Source of the DNA: Komagataeibacter xylinus
Lineage (GTDB): Bacteria; Pseudomonadota; Alphaproteobacteria; Acetobacterales; Acetobacteraceae
Assembly (NCBI RefSeq): GCF_009834365.1
Contig: NZ_CP041348.1
Location: 1,736,501 to 1,800,500 of the forward strand
Reading direction: 5' to 3'
Length of the DNA stretch: 64,000 nt
Both the position numbers and the translations under genes were made by a program. The notes below the pieces were generated by a model that was not told where the DNA came from, made no database searches, and saw nothing but the letters and a program-made list of their open reading frames with translations. The stretch's first letter is position 1. Every line of letters starts with the position of its first letter. Shown here piece after piece: positions 10,698 through 19,831 of the stretch.

Positions 10698-11249
10698 ATG
10701 ACCGCATCTTCTCTTCCCTCGCCGCCTGCGCATTACAGTTGGGAGACACGGTGGCTGCACTGGCTGACCGCCGTGCTCGTGCTCGAACAGTTCGTTGTGG
10801 GGCAGGTGGGCTGGCATCTCATGGCCCGCACGGCGGCATGGCGGCCTTTTCTGGTCGCGACGCATACCTCGCTGGGCGTGGTGCTGGCTACGGTGTTCAT
10901 CATTCGTGTGGTATGGGCCATGACCGGTGGCCGGGCCATTCATTTCCCCATCGTGACAATGCAGGACCGCGTGGCGCGCAGCGTGCATCGCCTGCTCTAT
11001 ATGCTGCTCGGCGGTGAGATCGTGTTCGGCTACATGGCGCGCTGGTCTACCGGGCGGCCCGTCATGGCGTTTGGCGTGCCGATCAATTCGCCCCTGCCCA
11101 TGCTGATGCACGGAACGCATTCCTTTTTCTCAGGATTACATCACTGGAATGCATGGTTACTGTTTTGCGTGGCGCTCTTTCATGGGTTTGCAGGATTTTA
11201 CCATCTGTTCATTTATCGTGACCGAATTTTTCAGAGAATGTTACCTTGA
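10698..11249 (+). CDS. Cytochrome b561-type membrane protein
   Basis: This 183-residue protein has four predicted membrane helices and conserved histidines suited to two b-type hemes: WLHWLTAVLV, LVATHTSLGVVL, LMHGTHSF and LHHWNAWLL/ALFHGFAGFYH. Such cytochromes carry electrons between quinone and periplasmic donors or oxidants. ATG at 10698 has AGAGG seven bases upstream. A weak hairpin (ACAGAG/CTCTGT) follows the gene near 11297. Confidence 0.85.
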   Translation: MTASSLPSPPAHYSWETRWLHWLTAVLVLEQFVVGQVGWHLMARTAAWRPFLVATHTSLGVVLATVFIIRVVWAMTGGRAIHFPIVTMQDRVARSVHRLLYMLLGGEIVFGYMARWSTGRPVMAFGVPINSPLPMLMHGTHSFFSGLHHWNAWLLFCVALFHGFAGFYHLFIYRDRIFQRMLP

Positions 11250-11637
11250 TGAGTGTGGATAAGGCGGGTTGTCCTAATAGCGCCTGCTAATGGTACAGAG
11301 CGCTTCTCTGTAAATAAAAAAATAGGAATATAAGCCTAAAAACCACTATTCTGGAATTTGTCTGCGGCGCTTTTAAATAGGAAATATCTTTAACTGCCAG
11401 GGCTGAGACTGCTCTAAGGTATTCATTAAATTTCTTTAGGATAATTTTTTGTTGCATTGTGAATGAATGTTTACTAATATCTGATTAATCTCAGCAAATA
11501 TAAAAATAAATGGCTGATTCTCCGTTGGATGCCCTTGTTGTAAGCGGTTGATGCCAGAAGGTTTCCACAATGCCCATGTGGAGCCAGGTGTTTGTTGAAA
11601 CTTGTTTTCGTAAACGCATGGTATCGGGCGCTCAAAA
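11250..11637. other. AT-rich intergenic region before the c-di-GMP genes
   Basis: This 388-bp stretch holds no convincing gene. It is much richer in A/T than its neighbours, with many runs of A and T, and probably carries the promoter and a long leader for the three-gene GGDEF-EAL cluster. I see the small hairpin ACAGAG/CTCTGT near 11297 and an imperfect palindrome CCACAATGCCCATGTGG near 11566. I could not assign a -35/-10 pair. Confidence 0.4.
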
Positions 11638-13722
11638 ATGGAAGTCATGAGCAATCATATCTATGAACTGAAGGTATATGATCCCTTCCTGCTCGCTGGT
11701 GCGCTGATTGTATGCGTAACAGGCGCGTGGATTACGATGCGGCTGGTAACCCGGGTGGCGCAGACCCGTGGCCGTCAGCGGCTGGGCTGGTACTGCCTTG
11801 CCAGCATGGCGGGGGCGAGTTTCGTGTGGTGCACGCATTTTGCCGCCATGCTGGCCTATCACTGCAATGCCCATGTACATCTTGACCCGCTGAACACGGG
11901 GCTTTCGCTGCTGGTCATGCTGGTTGCCATGCCGCTGGCGGTGATGCTGGCCGTGCGCCTGTATGGCCGTGGCGGCTGCATGCTCGGTGGCCTGGTGCTC
12001 GGGCTTGGCATTGCCGGCATGCATTATGCCGGCATGGCCGCCTACGGGGTTGATGCGCCCGTGGTGTGGAGCGGCCTGCTTGTGGCGGTGTCGATCGTAA
12101 TCGGCATTGCACTGTCCGCCACTGCCCTTGTGCTGGCATTGCGGCCGGTCAATCCACGCCGCGAGGTCGAGACGACGCTGGCCCTCGTCGGCGCTGTCGC
12201 CGGGCTGCATTTTACCGGCATGGAGGCCATGCATGTGGTGGCCATGCCCCAGCACATGCTGGCTATGCACGATAACGGGCAGTTTCTGGCGTTGGGGCTC
12301 TCGGTCATCGGGGGTACGATGCTCATGCTTATTGCCGGTATCGCCTCGTTCGTCATTGATGGCAGCGCACGGCAGGAATCCTATGAGGAACTGCATCGCA
12401 TGGCCATGTCGGACGGGCTGACCGGCCTGCCCAACCGCATCAGCTTCAATGAGCGGCTGCAGAACGAAGTCAGCCGGGCCGACCGCGATGGCGAACAGTT
12501 TGCCGTTATTGGCATTGACCTGAACAAGTTCAAGGAAATCAACGATACCCGAGGCCATGCCGCAGGTGATATCGTGCTCACCACGCTGGCCGAGCGCTTC
12601 AGTGCCCTGCTTGCGGATGGCGAGTTCGTGGCCCGTCTTGGCGGTGATGAGTTCATCGCCATCCACCGCACGTCCGACAGCGCCGAACTGCATGGTTTTG
12701 TCGAGCGGATCCAGCAGGCGCTCAACCAGCCGATCCCCATCGAGGATTACGTGGTGACCAGTGGCGGCAGTATTGGCGTTGCGGTCTACCCCGTGGATGC
12801 GACCGACAGCGAGACCCTGATCTCGCGCGCGGACATGGCCATGTATCGCGCCAAGACCGACCCGCATCATACCATCTGGTATTATGAAAGCGCGCTCGAC
12901 CAGAGTATGCGCGAACGCCGTGCACTTGGCGGGGACCTGAGGGCCGCCATGGCCAACGGGCAGCTTTCGCTGTTCTATCAGGTGCAGACCGTAGTGGCCA
13001 CGGGCGAGGTTTCGGGTTACGAGGCGCTGCTGCGCTGGGAGCACCCCGAACGCGGGGCGATCGAACCGCGCGAGATCCTGCAGATTGCCGATGAGAGCGG
13101 CCTGATCATCAAGCTCGGTGAATGGGTGCTCAGGACCGCCTGCGAGGCGGCGGCAGGGTGGGATGAAAACATCCGGGTCGCGGTCAATATGTCCGCTGCC
13201 CAGTTTCTCCAGCCCCGCTTTGTCGTGGCCGTGCAGGAAAACCTTGCCCGCAGCGGGCTTGCGCCCGATCGCCTTGTCATCGAGATCACGGAAGACACCG
13301 TGCAGCGCAATCTTGACCGCGCGCTTGCCATGGCCAACAGCCTGCAGGCCCTTGGGGTGCGCCTTGCACTTGATGAGTTTGGCGGTACCCATTCGGTGCT
13401 GCACATGTTGCGCGTGTTTCCGTTCAGCAAGCTCAAGATCGATCGTTCGCTCATGCAGCAGGTCGATACCGCCCCGGTGGTGGCGCAGCTTGTGCGCTCC
13501 ATCCTGCTCATGGGCCACGCGCTGCGCATATCGGTGCTGGCGCAGGGGATCGAAACCAGAGGCCAGTTCAGCATAGCCTCCGCCGAAGGGTGCGACGAAG
13601 GCCAGGGCTACCTGATCGGCCACCCCGCGCAGTCGGCCCAGGGCGCAGCCATGACAGGGGTGGGATCTCCCGCCGCTTCCATACGCGCCGTCTCTTCTCC
13701 CGTATTCAGTCCTGATACCTGA
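11638..13722 (+). CDS. MHYT-GGDEF-EAL protein, probable diguanylate cyclase
   Basis: The ~694-residue protein starts with seven hydrophobic helices holding MHYT-type metal-sensing motifs (WCTHFAAM, GMHYAGM, LHFTGMEAMHV). The MHYT domain is thought to sense O2, CO or NO through a metal. A GGDEF domain follows with an intact signature at 335-339 (RLGGDEF), then an EAL domain (GYEALLRWEHP, E462). The EAL domain looks inactive: the DDFGTG loop reads DEFGGT and the EGVE motif reads QGIE. Net activity is therefore predicted to be c-di-GMP synthesis. No RxxD inhibitory site is seen. The start could be ATG at 11638 or 11647. The next gene begins 16 bp later, so they form an operon. Confidence 0.88.
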   Translation: MEVMSNHIYELKVYDPFLLAGALIVCVTGAWITMRLVTRVAQTRGRQRLGWYCLASMAGASFVWCTHFAAMLAYHCNAHVHLDPLNTGLSLLVMLVAMPLAVMLAVRLYGRGGCMLGGLVLGLGIAGMHYAGMAAYGVDAPVVWSGLLVAVSIVIGIALSATALVLALRPVNPRREVETTLALVGAVAGLHFTGMEAMHVVAMPQHMLAMHDNGQFLALGLSVIGGTMLMLIAGIASFVIDGSARQESYEELHRMAMSDGLTGLPNRISFNERLQNEVSRADRDGEQFAVIGIDLNKFKEINDTRGHAAGDIVLTTLAERFSALLADGEFVARLGGDEFIAIHRTSDSAELHGFVERIQQALNQPIPIEDYVVTSGGSIGVAVYPVDATDSETLISRADMAMYRAKTDPHHTIWYYESALDQSMRERRALGGDLRAAMANGQLSLFYQVQTVVATGEVSGYEALLRWEHPERGAIEPREILQIADESGLIIKLGEWVLRTACEAAAGWDENIRVAVNMSAAQFLQPRFVVAVQENLARSGLAPDRLVIEITEDTVQRNLDRALAMANSLQALGVRLALDEFGGTHSVLHMLRVFPFSKLKIDRSLMQQVDTAPVVAQLVRSILLMGHALRISVLAQGIETRGQFSIASAEGCDEGQGYLIGHPAQSAQGAAMTGVGSPAASIRAVSSPVFSPDT

Positions 13723-13738
13723 GAGACGCGAATTTTTC

Positions 13739-16018
13739 ATGAAACAGCAAGAGCATGTAATGAACCCTCACGATGCCTCCGCGATGACGTCTGGACAGAC
13801 CCCCGCCAGCGAACTTGACATGACTGCCGATGTCAGCCTCCAGCTGCTTGAGCAGGCGACGGACGGTGTGGTCATCATCAACGAACGCAACGAGGTGGTC
13901 TTTTTCAATCCGGCGGCCGAGAAGCTGTGGGGCTATTCCGAGAGCGAAGTGCTGGGTCGTAACGTGAGCTGCCTCGTGCCGTCGGTCTATCGTGGCGATC
14001 ATGACAGCTACATCTACAAGAACCGCAAAACGGGCGTGAACCGCATTGTCGGCACCTCGCGCGAGGTAACGTTCGAGAACAAGGCGGGTGACTACATCTC
14101 GGGCGAGATGTCGATCTCGACCGCACTGCTCGGGCCGGAACAGAAACGTTATTACATGGCCTTTATGAAAGGCGTGACCGAGGAGAGCCACCGCCGCAAG
14201 CTGCTCGACCTGCAGAATACGGTGTTCCAGGCCATCTCCAACGACATGCTGGTTGAAGACGTGGCCGATCTGGTGTGCCGTGAGGTGGAAAGCTTCGTGC
14301 CCAACACGGTCTCGGTCATCATCTTGCTTGATGAGAACAACCGCCTGAGCATCCTGTCGGGCCCCGGCCTGCCGCGCCGTTATGCCGCGGCACTCGAGAA
14401 CATGGCCCTGACCGAAGGCGACCTTGCGGCACTGGGCAATGACTTGTCGGAAGCCAACAGCATCGTGTGGGACAGCTACCGCTCGCTCGGCATCTCGCTG
14501 GGGCTGCACAACTGCTGGGCCTCGGCCATCAAATCGCGCAACGGGCGCATTTCGGGCATTTTCGCGCTGTATTCACGCAACCAGTACAAGCTGAGCGACT
14601 GGCCGCAGAAGATCGTGTCGGGCTGCGTGCCCTTCTGTAGCGTGGTGATCGAGAACTACGAGGCGCAGCAGCATATCTCCCAGTTGGCCAACCACGATTC
14701 ACTGACCGGCTTCCTCAACCGCACCGCCATCCACACGGTCATCAAGTCGATGATCGACCGCCCGGGTGACAATGAGTTCGCGGTGTTCATGATCGATATC
14801 GACCGTTTCCGCGATATCAACGACACGCTCGGCCACATGAATGGCGATGCCTTCCTCAAGGCGGTGGCCCAGCGGCTCAAGGACCTGTCGCGCAGCAATT
14901 ACATCCTCAGCCGATCGGGCGGCGATGAGTTTGTCATCGTCGTGCCCGACTGCGATGAAGACAAGGCCGTGAGTTTTGCAGAGAGCCTGATCAAGGCCAT
15001 GCAGGAACCCATCGAGATCGCGGGTAACCTGCTTGTTGTCTCCCTAGGCATCGGCATCAGCCTGTTCCCTGAGAACGGGCCGGATAGCGAATCCCTGCTT
15101 GGCCATGCCGAGATTGCCATGCGCCGGTGCAAGAAAGAGGCGCGTGGCGGCTACTGCGTGTCCAGCACGGCCGATAACCGCGCCGCCCAGGACCGGCTGC
15201 TGCTCGGCTCGGCGCTGCGGGATTCACTGGCCAAGGGCATGCTCAACCTGCATTACCAGCCGCAGGTCGATATCCAGACCGGCAAGCTGTATGGCGTGGA
15301 GGCGCTCTCGCGCTGGAAGCACCCGACGCTGGGTAACATCTACCCCTCGCGCTTCATTGCGGTGGCGGAGGATACCGGACAGATCGAGACGATCGGCACC
15401 TGGTCGCTGGAGGAAGCGACAAGGCAGATCCTCGACTGGGAGCGCGCCGGGCTTTACGTGCCGACCGTTTCGGTCAACCTGTCGGCGGCGCATTTCCGCA
15501 ATCGCGGGCTGCCCGCGCTGATCGAGCGCATCCTCAAGGACCGCCACATCTCGCCGGACCGCCTGTGCGTGGAAATTACGGAAAGCGTGATGATGGACGA
15601 AAACGAGGATACGATGGAAGGCCTTGCCGCCATCCGTAACCTTGGGGTTGGTCTGTCGATGGATGATTTCGGCACGGGGTATTCGTCGCTTTCGAGGCTG
15701 ACGCGCCTGCCGCTGACCGAGATCAAGATCGATCGCAGCTTCATCATGAACCTCGAGCATGATGCCAACGCCCAGGCCGTGACCACGGCGGTGATCGGCA
15801 TCGGCAACCGCCTGGGCATGACCGTCGTGACCGAAGGTGTCGAGACCGAGGCCCAGCTTAAGCTGCTGCAGGGGCTGAACTGCGATGTGGTGCAGGGCTA
15901 TCTGTTCGCGCGGCCGATGCCGCCGGCGGAACTGCTTGAATGGTCGCAGGGGCCAGCCAAGACGCTTGCGCTCGAACTGATTGCCTCTGATAAGGCCGAA
16001 AGCAAAACCAAGAAATAG
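13739..16018 (+). CDS. PAS-GAF-GGDEF-EAL c-di-GMP enzyme with heme-type PAS
   Basis: This 759-residue protein has the E. coli DosP-like order: PAS (about 28-140), GAF-like (165-310), GGDEF (320-480) and EAL (495-745). The PAS core VVFFNPAAEKLWGY matches DosP closely. His88 aligns with the DosP heme ligand His77, while the distal Met95 position is Thr106, so a five-coordinate, O2-binding heme is likely. GGDEF is intact at 394-398, without an RxxD inhibitory site. The EAL domain keeps all catalytic motifs (EALSRW E521, VNLSAAHF, EITES, DDFGTG, KID, EGVE, QGY). Both activities are possible. The family includes the cellulose-regulating Dgc/PdeA enzymes of Komagataeibacter. Paralogue follows downstream. 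Confidence 0.9.
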   Translation: MKQQEHVMNPHDASAMTSGQTPASELDMTADVSLQLLEQATDGVVIINERNEVVFFNPAAEKLWGYSESEVLGRNVSCLVPSVYRGDHDSYIYKNRKTGVNRIVGTSREVTFENKAGDYISGEMSISTALLGPEQKRYYMAFMKGVTEESHRRKLLDLQNTVFQAISNDMLVEDVADLVCREVESFVPNTVSVIILLDENNRLSILSGPGLPRRYAAALENMALTEGDLAALGNDLSEANSIVWDSYRSLGISLGLHNCWASAIKSRNGRISGIFALYSRNQYKLSDWPQKIVSGCVPFCSVVIENYEAQQHISQLANHDSLTGFLNRTAIHTVIKSMIDRPGDNEFAVFMIDIDRFRDINDTLGHMNGDAFLKAVAQRLKDLSRSNYILSRSGGDEFVIVVPDCDEDKAVSFAESLIKAMQEPIEIAGNLLVVSLGIGISLFPENGPDSESLLGHAEIAMRRCKKEARGGYCVSSTADNRAAQDRLLLGSALRDSLAKGMLNLHYQPQVDIQTGKLYGVEALSRWKHPTLGNIYPSRFIAVAEDTGQIETIGTWSLEEATRQILDWERAGLYVPTVSVNLSAAHFRNRGLPALIERILKDRHISPDRLCVEITESVMMDENEDTMEGLAAIRNLGVGLSMDDFGTGYSSLSRLTRLPLTEIKIDRSFIMNLEHDANAQAVTTAVIGIGNRLGMTVVTEGVETEAQLKLLQGLNCDVVQGYLFARPMPPAELLEWSQGPAKTLALELIASDKAESKTKK

Positions 16019-16092
16019 TTTCGCCGCAATTTCTGGCTTGTTCGCTGTCCCCATGCCTGGTTGGAAACAGGCCTGCTTAACCTTGGATCCCT

Positions 16093-18315
16093 ATGAAAAC
16101 GCAGAATCCCACCCCTTCGCCAGCTGTCGTGGCCATTCCTGAAATCAGTTTTGAACTGTTACATCAGGCACATGACGGCATGGTTATCATCGATGACCAT
16201 AATACGATCCTCTATGCCAATCCGGCAGCCGAGACGTTATGGGGCTACGACCCGGGCGAGCTCACGGGGCGGCCCGTGGGGGAACTCATGGCTGCATCTG
16301 TGGAAAATGGGGCAGCACCCTTTGACATCGATGCCTCGGTCCAGGCGGTTGAGCCGGTATCGGGGGAGGTCACGTTCGAGAACCGCAGCGGCGACTACAT
16401 CTCTGCCGAGGTCAGCCTGACGGCGGCGCGCGTAGGGGCCGGCGGCCGCCGTTACCGCCTGATGATGGTGCATGGCACTACCGGCGCGGGCCATCGCAGC
16501 CGGGTGGTCGAACTGCAGAACACGGTGTTCCGCTCGCTGTCGAGCGAGATCCAGATCCAGGACGTGGCGGACATGGTCTGCCGCGAGGTCGAGACGCTGG
16601 TGCCCAATACGGTTGCCGTGCTGATCCTGCTTGATGAGCAGAGCCGCCTGCGCATCCTGTCGGGTCCCGGCATGCCGCGCCGCTTTGCCGCAGCCCTGGA
16701 AGACATGCGCCTGACCGAGGCCGATATTGCCGCCCTCGCCAATGACCTGAACGAGGCGACCACCATCGTCTGGGACAGCTACCGCTCGGTTGGCATCTCG
16801 CTGGGGCTGCATCATTGCTGGGCTTCGGCCATCCGCACGCGCAACGGGCGCATTACGGGCATTTTTGCGCTGTATTCGCGCTCCGAGCGCAACCGGGGCG
16901 GCTGGCCTGCGCAGATCGTGAACAGCTGCGTGCCGTTCTGTGGCGTGCTGATCGAGCAGCATGAGGCGCGCCAGCACATCTCGCAGCTGTCGAATTACGA
17001 CCCGCTGACCGGCTTCCTCAACCGTACGGCGGTGCACAAGGTCATCCGCTCGCTGATCGGCCAGCCGGGTGATAATCATTTCGCGCTGTATATGATCGAT
17101 ATCGACCGCTTCCGCGATATCAATGATGCGCTGGGCCATATCAATGGCGATGGCTTCCTGAAATCCGTTTCCGAGCGGCTCAAGGGTGTGTCGCGCAGCA
17201 ATTACGTGCTCAGCCGTTCCGGCCCGAACGAGTTCCTGATCATCGTGCCCAACACGCGCCGGGATGATGCGCTCAGATTTGCCGATATCCTGCACGGCTG
17301 CGTCAAGCAGCCCATCGAGATTGGCGGCAACATGATCGTGCCGACGCTGGGCATCGGCATCAGCCTGTTCCCCGAGAACGGGCCGGATGGCGAATCCCTG
17401 CTCAGCTATGCCGAGCAGGCCATGCGGCACGCCAAGCGCTCGGGGCTGGGCATGACCCACCTTGCCCGCTCGGAAGACAACAAGGCCGCGCAGGACCGGC
17501 TGCTGCTGGGCTCGGCACTGCGTGAATCGCTGGCGCAGGGCCTGCTCAACCTGCAGTACCAGCCTCAGATCGACGTGCGCAACAACACGCTGTATGGTGT
17601 TGAGGCGCTGTCACGGTGGAACCATCCCACGCTGGGCAACATCTACCCCTCGCGCTTCATTGCCGTGGCGGAAGAGACAGGGCAGATCGAGGCCATTGGC
17701 ACCTGGTCGCTGGAGCGCGCCGTGCGGCAGATCCTTGAATGGGATGCCCACGGCATTTACGTGCCCACCGTGGCGGTCAATCTTTCTGCCGGTCACTTCC
17801 GCAACCGCAACCTGCCCGGCTTCATTGCCCGCCTGCTCAGTGACAGCAAGCTCGAGCCCCATCGCCTGACGGTCGAGATTACCGAGAGCGTGATGATGAC
17901 TGAAAACGAGGACACGAACATGGTCCTCCAGTCCATCCGCAACCTTGGCGTGGCGCTGTCGATGGATGATTTTGGCACGGGATATTCGTCGCTTTCAAGG
18001 CTGACGCGCCTGCCGCTGACCGAGATCAAGATCGATCGCAGCTTCATCATGAACCTCGAGCACGATGCCAACGCCCAGGCCGTGACCACGGCCGTGATCG
18101 GCATTGGCGGCCGTCTTGGCATGACGGTGGTGACCGAAGGCGTGGAAACCGTGCGCCAGCTTGACCTGCTGTGCCAGCTTGGGTGCGACGTGGTGCAGGG
18201 CTACCTGTTCGCCCGCCCCATGCCGCCTGAAAAGCTGGAGGAATGGCTGCGTGATGATCGTCTCGCCGCCGTGCTGAAGGAAGCCAAGGAAAGTCGCGCC
18301 GCCGCCAGCGAATAA
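16093..18315 (+). CDS. PAS-GAF-GGDEF-EAL paralogue, probable c-di-GMP phosphodiesterase
   Basis: The 740-residue protein has the same domain order as the gene before it and is clearly its tandem paralogue. The GGDEF signature is degenerate (GPNEF, 377-381), so cyclase activity should be lost. The EAL domain is complete: EALSRW (E504), VNLSAGHF, VEITES, DDFGTG, EIKIDRSF, EGVE and QGY. The PAS region lacks the histidine matching heme ligand His88 of its neighbour, so it is unlikely to bind heme the same way; flavin or no cofactor is possible. The gap of 74 bp from the preceding stop fits cotranscription. A terminator follows. Confidence 0.9.
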   Translation: MKTQNPTPSPAVVAIPEISFELLHQAHDGMVIIDDHNTILYANPAAETLWGYDPGELTGRPVGELMAASVENGAAPFDIDASVQAVEPVSGEVTFENRSGDYISAEVSLTAARVGAGGRRYRLMMVHGTTGAGHRSRVVELQNTVFRSLSSEIQIQDVADMVCREVETLVPNTVAVLILLDEQSRLRILSGPGMPRRFAAALEDMRLTEADIAALANDLNEATTIVWDSYRSVGISLGLHHCWASAIRTRNGRITGIFALYSRSERNRGGWPAQIVNSCVPFCGVLIEQHEARQHISQLSNYDPLTGFLNRTAVHKVIRSLIGQPGDNHFALYMIDIDRFRDINDALGHINGDGFLKSVSERLKGVSRSNYVLSRSGPNEFLIIVPNTRRDDALRFADILHGCVKQPIEIGGNMIVPTLGIGISLFPENGPDGESLLSYAEQAMRHAKRSGLGMTHLARSEDNKAAQDRLLLGSALRESLAQGLLNLQYQPQIDVRNNTLYGVEALSRWNHPTLGNIYPSRFIAVAEETGQIEAIGTWSLERAVRQILEWDAHGIYVPTVAVNLSAGHFRNRNLPGFIARLLSDSKLEPHRLTVEITESVMMTENEDTNMVLQSIRNLGVALSMDDFGTGYSSLSRLTRLPLTEIKIDRSFIMNLEHDANAQAVTTAVIGIGGRLGMTVVTEGVETVRQLDLLCQLGCDVVQGYLFARPMPPEKLEEWLRDDRLAAVLKEAKESRAAASE

Positions 18316-18346
18316 GGCGCACACCTGCATCTGTATCCATGATCCG

Positions 18347-18376
18347 CACCCCGGCCCGCAAGGACCGGGGTGTCTT
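18347..18376 (+). terminator. Terminator after the c-di-GMP genes
   Basis: CACCCCGG and CCGGGGTG form an 8-bp GC stem around a 10-base loop, followed by TCTTTGT. It lies 32 bases after the stop of the last GGDEF-EAL gene and before the dihydroorotase start. Confidence 0.7.
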
Positions 18377-18490
18377 TGTATGGGCGGTTTGCACACAGCC
18401 GGGTGCATGCCATACAGGCAGGATCAGCAACCCCCTGCGCCCGCCTGCCGCATGCCGCCGGTTGCGGGTTCATGGCCACAGGATAATTCC

Positions 18491-19831
18491 ATGACCCTAC
18501 CCATTTTTGATCTTTGTCTGAAAAATGGCAGCGTTGTCCTGCCTGACGCCACGGTCGTGACCGATGTTTACGTGCGTGACGGGCGTATTGCCCGCATTGG
18601 CGGCCAGGGCGATGCGGGCCGGGTCATTGACTGCACGGGGCTGACTGTCCTGCCGGGCGTGATCGACACGCAGGTCCATTTTCGTGAGCCGGGGCTGACA
18701 GCTGCGGAAGATCTGGCCACCGGCAGCCTCGCCGCCGTGATGGGTGGCGTGACCGCCGTGTTTGAAATGCCCAACACCAAGCCTGCCACCGACTGCCCCG
18801 AGGCGGTTGTGGCCAAGCTTGAGCATGCGCGCGGGCGCATGTGGTGCGACCATGCCTTTTACGTTGGGGCCACGACCGATAACGCCGATCGCTGCGCCGA
18901 ACTGGAAATGTTGCCGGGCACGGCGGGGATCAAGATTTTCATGGGTTCTTCCACCGGCAACCTGCTGGTGTCCGATGATGCGGTGCTTGAGCGGGTGCTG
19001 CGCTCGGGCCGCCGCCGTGTCGCGATCCATGCCGAGGACGAGACCCGCCTGCTTGAGCGCATGAATGAGCGCAGGGCAGGCGATCCGTCGAGCCACCCGG
19101 TCTGGCGCGATGATGAAACGGCCATGCGCGCAACACAGCGCATCGTGCAACTGGCGCGGCGCACGGGGCGGCGCATCCATGTGCTGCATATCACCACACC
19201 GGCTGAATATGAGTTCCTGGCAGGTCACAAGGACATTGCCAGTTGCGAGGTCACGCCGCAGCACCTGACGCTGGCGGCCGAGGATGCCTATCCCCGGCTG
19301 GGCACGCTGGCGCAGATGAATCCGCCCATCCGTGGCCAGAAATATCGTGATGGACTGTGGTACTGGCTGGGCCAGGGCGTGCCCGACATTATCGGTTCCG
19401 ACCATGCGCCCCATCCGCTCGCGGCCAAGCAGCGCGCCTATCCCGATACCCCTTCGGGCATGCCGGGGGTGCAGACCCTGCTGCCGCTCATGCTTGACCA
19501 CGTAGCCAAGGGGAGGCTGTCGCTGCGCCGGCTGGTGGACATGACATCGGCTGGCCCGCAGCGCCTGTTCGGGCTGGTGCGCAAGGGACGCATCGCGGTG
19601 GGGTATGACGCGGATTTCTCGGTGGTCGATCTGGCTGCGCGCTGGACGGTGCAGCAGGAATGGCTGGCCTCCAAATGTGGCTGGTCGCCTTTTGTTGGCG
19701 CAGAACTGACCGGTCGCCCCATGGGCACCATCATCCGCGGCAATGTAGTCATGTGGGAAAATCAGGTCGCGCCCACCGCGCAGGGTGCGCCGCTGTTGTT
19801 TGAAGCTACGGATCGCCCGCTGACCGCCTGA
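18491..19831 (+). CDS. pyrC: Dihydroorotase (class I-like)
   Basis: This 446-residue amidohydrolase should cyclise carbamoyl aspartate to dihydroorotate in pyrimidine synthesis. Seen: VIDTQVHFREPGLT (the first histidine of the HxH metal pair is Gln61), EMPNTKPAT, GIKIFMGSSTGN (carboxylated lysine), AIHAEDE, VLHITT and GSDHAPH. The Q-for-H change recurs, to my knowledge, in an alphaproteobacterial dihydroorotase branch; an allantoinase-like or non-catalytic role cannot be excluded. ATG at 18491 follows AGGATAATTCC. Its last 188 bp are duplicated at 22140. Confidence 0.85.
   Translation: MTLPIFDLCLKNGSVVLPDATVVTDVYVRDGRIARIGGQGDAGRVIDCTGLTVLPGVIDTQVHFREPGLTAAEDLATGSLAAVMGGVTAVFEMPNTKPATDCPEAVVAKLEHARGRMWCDHAFYVGATTDNADRCAELEMLPGTAGIKIFMGSSTGNLLVSDDAVLERVLRSGRRRVAIHAEDETRLLERMNERRAGDPSSHPVWRDDETAMRATQRIVQLARRTGRRIHVLHITTPAEYEFLAGHKDIASCEVTPQHLTLAAEDAYPRLGTLAQMNPPIRGQKYRDGLWYWLGQGVPDIIGSDHAPHPLAAKQRAYPDTPSGMPGVQTLLPLMLDHVAKGRLSLRRLVDMTSAGPQRLFGLVRKGRIAVGYDADFSVVDLAARWTVQQEWLASKCGWSPFVGAELTGRPMGTIIRGNVVMWENQVAPTAQGAPLLFEATDRPLTA

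Follow-up and report, generated by a model that had tools for sequence, protein, structure and literature searches.

The window analyzed is a 64,000-nucleotide stretch of Komagataeibacter xylinus DNA (contig NZ_CP041348.1, positions 1,736,501 to 1,800,500), within which three genes, here termed W1, W2, and W3, encode GGDEF-EAL proteins of cyclic diguanosine monophosphate (c-di-GMP) turnover. All three open reading frames (ORFs) lie on the + strand and run head to tail, with gaps of 16 bp between W1 and W2 and 74 bp between W2 and W3; unless stated otherwise, coordinates are window positions on that strand. W1 (11638..13722, 694 amino acids) is assigned an MHYT region (PF03707, three stretches), a GGDEF domain, and an EAL domain by Pfam, and together with the site alignment this predicts a membrane diguanylate cyclase with a dead EAL domain. 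W2 (13739..16018, 759 amino acids) is composed of PAS, GGDEF, and EAL domains and resembles AxPDEA1 and DosP, its Pfam assignment, DosP and FixL matches, and site residues predicting a heme-controlled phosphodiesterase. W3 (16093..18315, 740 amino acids) has the same three Pfam domains and is predicted from these and its site residues to be a phosphodiesterase with neither heme nor a cyclase site. The closest named loci are those of K. nataicola, K. xylinus, and K. melomenusus, with 90-98% identity across the W1-W3 proteins. An initial annotation of this DNA had described three tandem GGDEF-EAL genes with patterned losses of sites, and the coordinates, Pfam assignments, and alignments of relatives agree with that description. 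Judged by its residues, the trio is a patterned, conserved division of labor and no strain oddity, the losses recurring in the relatives examined.

Catalytic and predicted heme-binding residues

The GGDEF signature of W1 (12640..12654) is intact, and the residues expected of a cyclase are conserved among its relatives, with the metal residues and the paired glycines present in 17 of 17 alignable rows and signature positions 3 and 4 kept in 16 of 16. The three MHYT repeats and their histidines are likewise kept (14/14 rows). The EAL domain still spells the letters E-A-L despite two changes: loop 6 (13372..13389) reads DEFGGT versus DDFGTG, and Gln-636 (13543..13545) replaces the last catalytic glutamate, that of EGVE. 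One of the seven critical EAL residues (ENEEDKE, as listed in PMC13141831) is therefore lost in addition to the loop 6 change. The glutamine is found in all 17 alignable rows, one of which is the C-terminal piece of the split gene of genome G013, and the second aspartate of DDFG is altered in the same 17; in K. swingsii the EAL asparagine is lost as well. These residue counts, like the trees described below, leave out L099 and L101-L106, which are repeats of named loci.

In W2 the proximal heme ligand by alignment is His-88 (14000..14002), and Arg-108 (14060..14062) aligns with the distal arginine of DosP. Both residues fall on the heme residues of DosP when the PAS domains are aligned and both are present in 17 of 17 rows, giving W2 the histidine-arginine pair of the FixL/DosP/AxPDEA1 type. 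The W2 PAS domain matches DosP (E value 5.2e-25) and FixL (1e-15), and DosP is the best solved-structure match over the length of W2. The position of the DosP methionine ligand, Met-95, is occupied by threonine in W2 with the arginine kept, which suggests a FixL-like, five-coordinate heme, the residue roles being taken from PMC4263535 and from general background. The AlphaFold model of W2 (mean predicted local distance difference test score (pLDDT) 78, predicted template modeling score (pTM) 0.42) places a helix at residues 82-98 around His-88 with a local pLDDT of about 60. The GGDEF signature (14918..14932) is intact, with GG[DE]EF and the metal residues present in 16 of 17 rows and GADEF in G013, and all seven EAL catalytic residues are present in every one of the 17 rows.

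The corresponding stretch of W3 (16294..16371), formerly a heme F-helix, is degenerate. Neither HD nor VGTSRE is found in any of 15 rows, and the F-helix motif of proximal histidine and distal arginine is absent from all of them, two rows carrying a stray histidine. Aligned within its own genome, the W3 segment opposite the heme histidine of W2 is 3 residues shorter and unrecognizable; the AlphaFold model of W3 (mean pLDDT 75, pTM 0.45) has no helix opposite W2 residues 82-98, with pLDDT mostly below 50, and the PAS match to DosP is weak (2.4e-8). The GGDEF signature is replaced by GPNEF (17221..17235), the second position being proline (9 rows) or serine (6 rows) and the third asparagine in 15 of 15 rows; the metal residues are kept, and the signature required of a cyclase is missing. 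The EAL domain has all seven residues in each of the 14 rows free of a contig-end cut. The RxxD motif is a GGDEF inhibition site, and none occurs at the usual place in W1, W2, or W3. At the level of residues the initial annotation is borne out for each gene: an MHYT protein that keeps GGDEF with a broken EAL, a second protein that keeps GGDEF, EAL, and the heme histidine His-88, and a third that has lost the heme histidine and GGDEF and retains a complete EAL.

Constraint on individual domains

The ratio of nonsynonymous to synonymous substitution rates (dN/dS) was calculated per domain from Nei-Gojobori (NG86) counts in 15 genomes with 2000 codon bootstraps, dS ranging from 0.34 to 0.87 over all sets. 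The sets are without K. melaceti, G013, G010, and Novacetimonas; that of D2, the PAS protein of an MHYT-PAS duo of the same genome, holds 11 genomes, sets X and Y hold 11, and set Tb holds 7 (L109 and L117 left out). Constraint mirrors the functions that are kept, dN/dS being lowest in the PAS domain of W2, in the EAL domain of W3, and, within W1, in the GGDEF domain. The values for W1 are 0.227 (MHYT), 0.096 (GGDEF), and 0.203 (EAL), with a ratio of EAL to GGDEF of 2.13 (bootstrap range 1.39-3.54). For W2 they are 0.028 (PAS), 0.030 (mid region), 0.103 (GGDEF), and 0.079 (EAL), and for W3 0.187, 0.060, 0.062, and 0.034 in the same order. The PAS domain thus has a W3 to W2 ratio of 6.95 (3.1-20.8) and the EAL domain a W2 to W3 ratio of 2.36 (1.25-4.67), which together make a PAS-to-EAL contrast between the two proteins of 16.7-fold (6.0-60.8). 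Between the W2 proteins of K. melaceti and G013, the comparable pair in which W3 is lacking, the PAS domain is less strict (0.132) and the EAL domain similar (0.095).

Distribution and probable order of the losses

A cytochrome b561 gene lies upstream of the trio and an amidohydrolase gene downstream. Of 19 genomes sampled in the genus, 16 have W3, whereas G005 (K. melaceti, locus L027), G010, and G013 lack it; in these three, W1 is open, not found, and split, respectively. The split W1 of G013 forms two ORFs and, together with GADEF in its W2, gives the impression of decay on the cyclase side. A sample of 80 genomes from 79 genera of the family has W2-like proteins (E value of 1e-120 or better) in 4 genomes, from 3 genera.

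In Novacetimonas (4/4 genomes, with G090 assigned to this genus by identity with the named N. cocois locus) a single W3-type protein is encoded at the same locus, adjoining cytochrome b561, and the space between the two genes is too small for W1 or W2. This protein keeps the heme motif HDSYI...IVGTSRE and reads GANEF in all four genomes. In a tree calculated without the PAS domain it joins W3, with Shimodaira-Hasegawa-like approximate likelihood ratio test (SH-aLRT) support of 95.6 when four Novacetimonas rows are included and 90.7 with one. A W3 orthologue with a heme motif and GANEF implies, if this grouping holds, that GGDEF would have been lost first and heme later, in Komagataeibacter and beside W2; on the same condition the species that lack W3 have lost it. 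In the trees W3 branches as a paralogue deep among the PAS phosphodiesterases, not as a dgc. Descent of W2 as a copy of D2 was considered separately, and the W2+D2 clade is rejected (approximately unbiased test, p 0.0013).

Gene layout and putative regulatory DNA

W1, W2, and W3 are probably one transcription unit, as the gene layout, the gaps free of recognizable sites, and the terminal hairpins fit a single transcript. Upstream of W1 a 388-bp AT-rich region (11250..11637) contains blocks conserved in an alignment of 7 genomes and is presumed to be the promoter region; a consensus scan finds no sigma-70-like site on its + strand. The promoter consensus scan as a whole returns 3 sites versus 2.8 in shuffles, none of them in either gap, and the consensus terminator scan finds no terminator-like site in the W1-W2 or W2-W3 gap. 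Downstream of W3, a GC-rich hairpin (18346..18373) present in 12 of 12 aligned genomes (-22.5 kcal/mol, z -3.07) is a possible operon terminator; it has a weak T-run and is not flagged by the consensus terminator scan. In K. melaceti, which is without W3, a hairpin directly follows W2. The W2-W3 gap contains a small inverted repeat (16055..16072) whose sequence is conserved in the 7-genome alignment, K. rhaeticus showing what looks like a paired change. Its folding is not better than that of shuffled sequences (z -0.52). An Rfam search of positions 11000-18700 gives three matches, all far below gathering scores. Expression of GGDEF-EAL genes in K. xylinus E25 has been reported (PMC6667682), under gene tags not matched to the trio locus.

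Other GGDEF-EAL proteins of the genome

The 4.0-Mb genome has 18 GGDEF and 18 EAL matches, all within the same 18 proteins, and no lone GGDEF or lone EAL protein is found among them; most GGDEF/EAL proteins of the genus are described as hybrids (PMC6528568). With 15 further GGDEF-EAL proteins in the genome, the self-contained, O2-tuned unit envisaged in the initial annotation is not supported. PilZ matches number four, three of which are within frames of 1503-1563 amino acids, a size that would be expected of cellulose synthases.

Three pairs of pdeA-dgc type are encoded elsewhere in the genome in their usual order (L012, L014, and L018; L013, of 150 amino acids, is a false ORF and was excluded). 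One of them directly follows a Crp-type gene, as is also reported for cdg1a (PMC6667682), and we infer that the three pairs correspond to cdg1-3. A cdg operon consists of pdeA followed by a short PAS-GGDEF-EAL dgc. The trio has no such arrangement, its order being MHYT, PAS, PAS with W3 not a dgc, and was rejected as a rearranged cdg operon. The suggestion that the usual pdeA-then-dgc order is reversed here consequently falls away, as three such pairs lie elsewhere and the first gene of the trio is of the MHYT type.

The genome has a second MHYT gene, D1 (L019, G000:C1, about 3265139-3267200, minus strand), which carries a frameshift inside its MHYT region, apparently from a short tandem duplication; its relatives are open frames of 669-696 amino acids. 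D2 has a perfect GGDEF signature yet asparagine in place of the metal aspartate in 12 of 12 rows (L019 and relatives L033-L040, L053, L116, and L121; L119, L120, and L124 were also omitted for D1 and D2), which shows that the GGDEF signature alone misleads. Its heme stretch drifts between species, with the histidine present in 9 of 12 rows. One more tandem pair of GGDEF-EAL genes with heme-PAS domains is found at L011 (G000:C1:711816-716278), the first reading SADEF with asparagine for the metal aspartate and the second GGDDF.

Interpretation of the trio

The trio is interpreted, with moderate confidence, as one specialized c-di-GMP operon comprising a cyclase (W1), a heme-controlled phosphodiesterase (W2), and a heme-free phosphodiesterase (W3). 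W1, as a membrane MHYT protein with a dead EAL domain, would make c-di-GMP. W2 would sense O2 through a FixL-like heme (His-88 and Arg-108, without a methionine ligand) and act mainly as a phosphodiesterase, and by analogy with AxPDEA1, an O2-controlled phosphodiesterase described as less active with O2 bound (PMC4263535, PMC6667682), it would be expected to work in the absence of O2 and to be inhibited in its presence. W3 would descend from a heme-bearing phosphodiesterase whose cyclase site was already gone, would have lost its heme pocket in the lineage having W2 alongside, and would do no gas sensing of its own. The presence of O2 would then favor synthesis and cellulose production, and its absence the breakdown of c-di-GMP.

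Several observations weigh against this interpretation. PAS values as relaxed as that of W3 (0.191 and 0.166) occur in two canonical pdeA-type proteins with their heme residues in place, so a relaxed PAS domain is by itself no proof of sensor loss, and the striking feature is the strict PAS of W2 rather than the loose PAS of W3. In its constraint the EAL domain of W3 cannot be told apart from that of one canonical pdeA protein (ratio 1.39, 0.70-2.98). The dead GGDEF domain of W3 (0.062) is no looser, and if anything stricter, than the intact GGDEF domain of W2 (0.103; W2 to W3 ratio 1.69, 0.83-3.37), which means that constraint does not simply track catalysis; the W3 domain is probably kept for structure or guanosine triphosphate (GTP) binding. 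The stray histidine of W3 lies in the ligand column itself (K. rhaeticus and G012), and an arginine occupies the distal column in one row, the two never occurring together. W2 residues 618-690 have an unusually similar stretch in W3, and at 661-690 the similarity of the two proteins averages 0.909 within genomes versus 0.875 between them, so that the two genes may have undergone some local gene conversion around residues 618-690. The joint occurrence of an intact W1 with W3 speaks for the operon (W1 is open in all 16 W3-bearing genomes, in one of which a contig end truncates W3, versus one of three without W3), but this count is only a hint because those three genomes may belong to a single clade. 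A tree that includes the PAS domain leaves the fork between the Novacetimonas protein and W3 open, and the trees are quick ones.

The same reciprocal constraint on W2 and W3, with its 16.7-fold PAS-to-EAL contrast, would also be expected if sensor and output were split between the two proteins, W2 serving as the heme sensor and W3 as the main phosphodiesterase site of a hetero-oligomer in which the O2 signal passes between subunits. The confinement of heme loss in W3 to the genus where W2 adjoins it points in this direction, as does the mid region of W2, near-frozen in genomes with W3 (0.030) versus 0.223 against the K. melaceti protein in a single comparison, and in Kosakonia the members of an O2-responsive trio are reported to bind one another (PMC13141831). 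Such an assembly is nonetheless rather unlikely, since every EAL catalytic residue is kept in W2, the W2 proteins of K. melaceti and G013 retain their heme and EAL residues without any W3, and D2, whose EAL domain is the strictest of all sets (0.025), has an equally relaxed PAS domain (0.200) with no such neighbor seen. The extended form of this proposal, in which a phosphodiesterase without a cyclase site handed sensing to its paralogue and kept catalysis, with W1 as the opposing cyclase on the same mRNA, is about equally unlikely.

The bifunctionality of W2 proposed in the initial annotation, where W2 would be a true switch, making or breaking c-di-GMP according to heme ligation, flanked by a cyclase and a phosphodiesterase each dedicated to a single activity, draws on the conservation of its GGDEF residues (16/17 rows) and EAL residues (17/17 rows) and on a GGDEF domain about as constrained as that of W1 (ratio 1.08, 0.57-2.02). 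The three pdeA-type proteins of the same genome likewise have intact GGDEF signatures and keep both motifs, however, and the role reported for AxPDEA1 is that of a phosphodiesterase (PMC4263535, PMC6667682), so the GGDEF domain of W2 is no argument for cyclase activity; with GADEF in the G013 protein as a further point, a bifunctional W2 is considered improbable. That the genes are redundant paralogues drifting without function is more improbable still. The genome has 18 proteins of this kind, and decay is seen nearby in the frameshifted D1, the split W1 of G013, and the variable heme stretch of D2, but all domains of the trio have dN/dS values well under 1 (0.028 to 0.227), on which grounds neutral decay was rejected, and W1 and W3 are both open in all 16 W3-bearing genomes, apart from the contig-end cut. 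The interpretation as an operon of one cyclase and two phosphodiesterases, only one of them under heme control, is accordingly preferred.

Significance and comparison with known systems

It was in this bacterial group that c-di-GMP was discovered. The control of cellulose output by O2 in the group is unsettled, direct evidence for a correlation between the two still being missing according to a review (PMC6559022). If the Novacetimonas grouping holds, the W3 orthologue with a heme motif and GANEF is new here and would give the order of the losses. A natural series is available in which W3 has a heme motif and a dead GGDEF (Novacetimonas), has no heme motif (most Komagataeibacter), or is absent altogether (K. 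melaceti), and it allows the worth of the sensor and that of the catalytic site to be judged separately. The trio also illustrates GGDEF-EAL hybrids turning one-way in a genome whose GGDEF and EAL proteins, as far as found, are all hybrids. No description of the trio in print is present among the matches listed, although Zhang et al. 2025 (10.1021/acs.jafc.4c07301), cited in PMC13068021 for ten tandem GGDEF-EAL genes of K. xylinus 2955, may cover these genes, and the term MHYT is absent from the main texts of PMC6528568, PMC6559022, and PMC13068021. A putative cyclase/phosphodiesterase gene beside dosP_3 is reported in K. intermedius (PMC13068021) and may belong to the same locus.

The pdeA-type proteins of this genome, of the AxPDEA1/cdg kind, share with W2 the PAS-GGDEF-EAL plan, the heme residues, and the GGDEF signature at 57-60% identity, and cdg operons, like the trio, encode opposing enzymes side by side. 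The trio differs in starting with a cyclase-type MHYT membrane protein and in having two PAS proteins, one of which is without the heme motif and GGDEF. In the Escherichia coli DosC-DosP system a cyclase is similarly opposed to a heme-PAS phosphodiesterase, and the GGDEF domain of DosP is described as having no cyclase activity (PMC4263535). DosC, however, has a globin sensor where W1 has MHYT, Met-95 of DosP is threonine in W2, and the trio adds a third, heme-less predicted phosphodiesterase. CoxC of Afipia carboxidovorans, which like W1 carries an MHYT domain, is reported to be a transcription regulator sensing CO with copper (PMC11347149), whereas W1 is a GGDEF-EAL protein. A further likeness is to KoBdcA, KoBdcB, and KoBpdA of Kosakonia oryzendophytica, three clustered c-di-GMP proteins in a cellulose producer with heme-PAS control and a GGDEF-dead phosphodiesterase (PMC13141831). 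These are described as two cyclases and one phosphodiesterase that bind each other, the weak heme binder being a cyclase that belongs to the O2-responsive set, and their genes adjoin the cellulose operon (PMC13141831). The Komagataeibacter trio, with b561 and amidohydrolase genes as its neighbors, does not adjoin that operon, and one cyclase and two phosphodiesterases are predicted for it.

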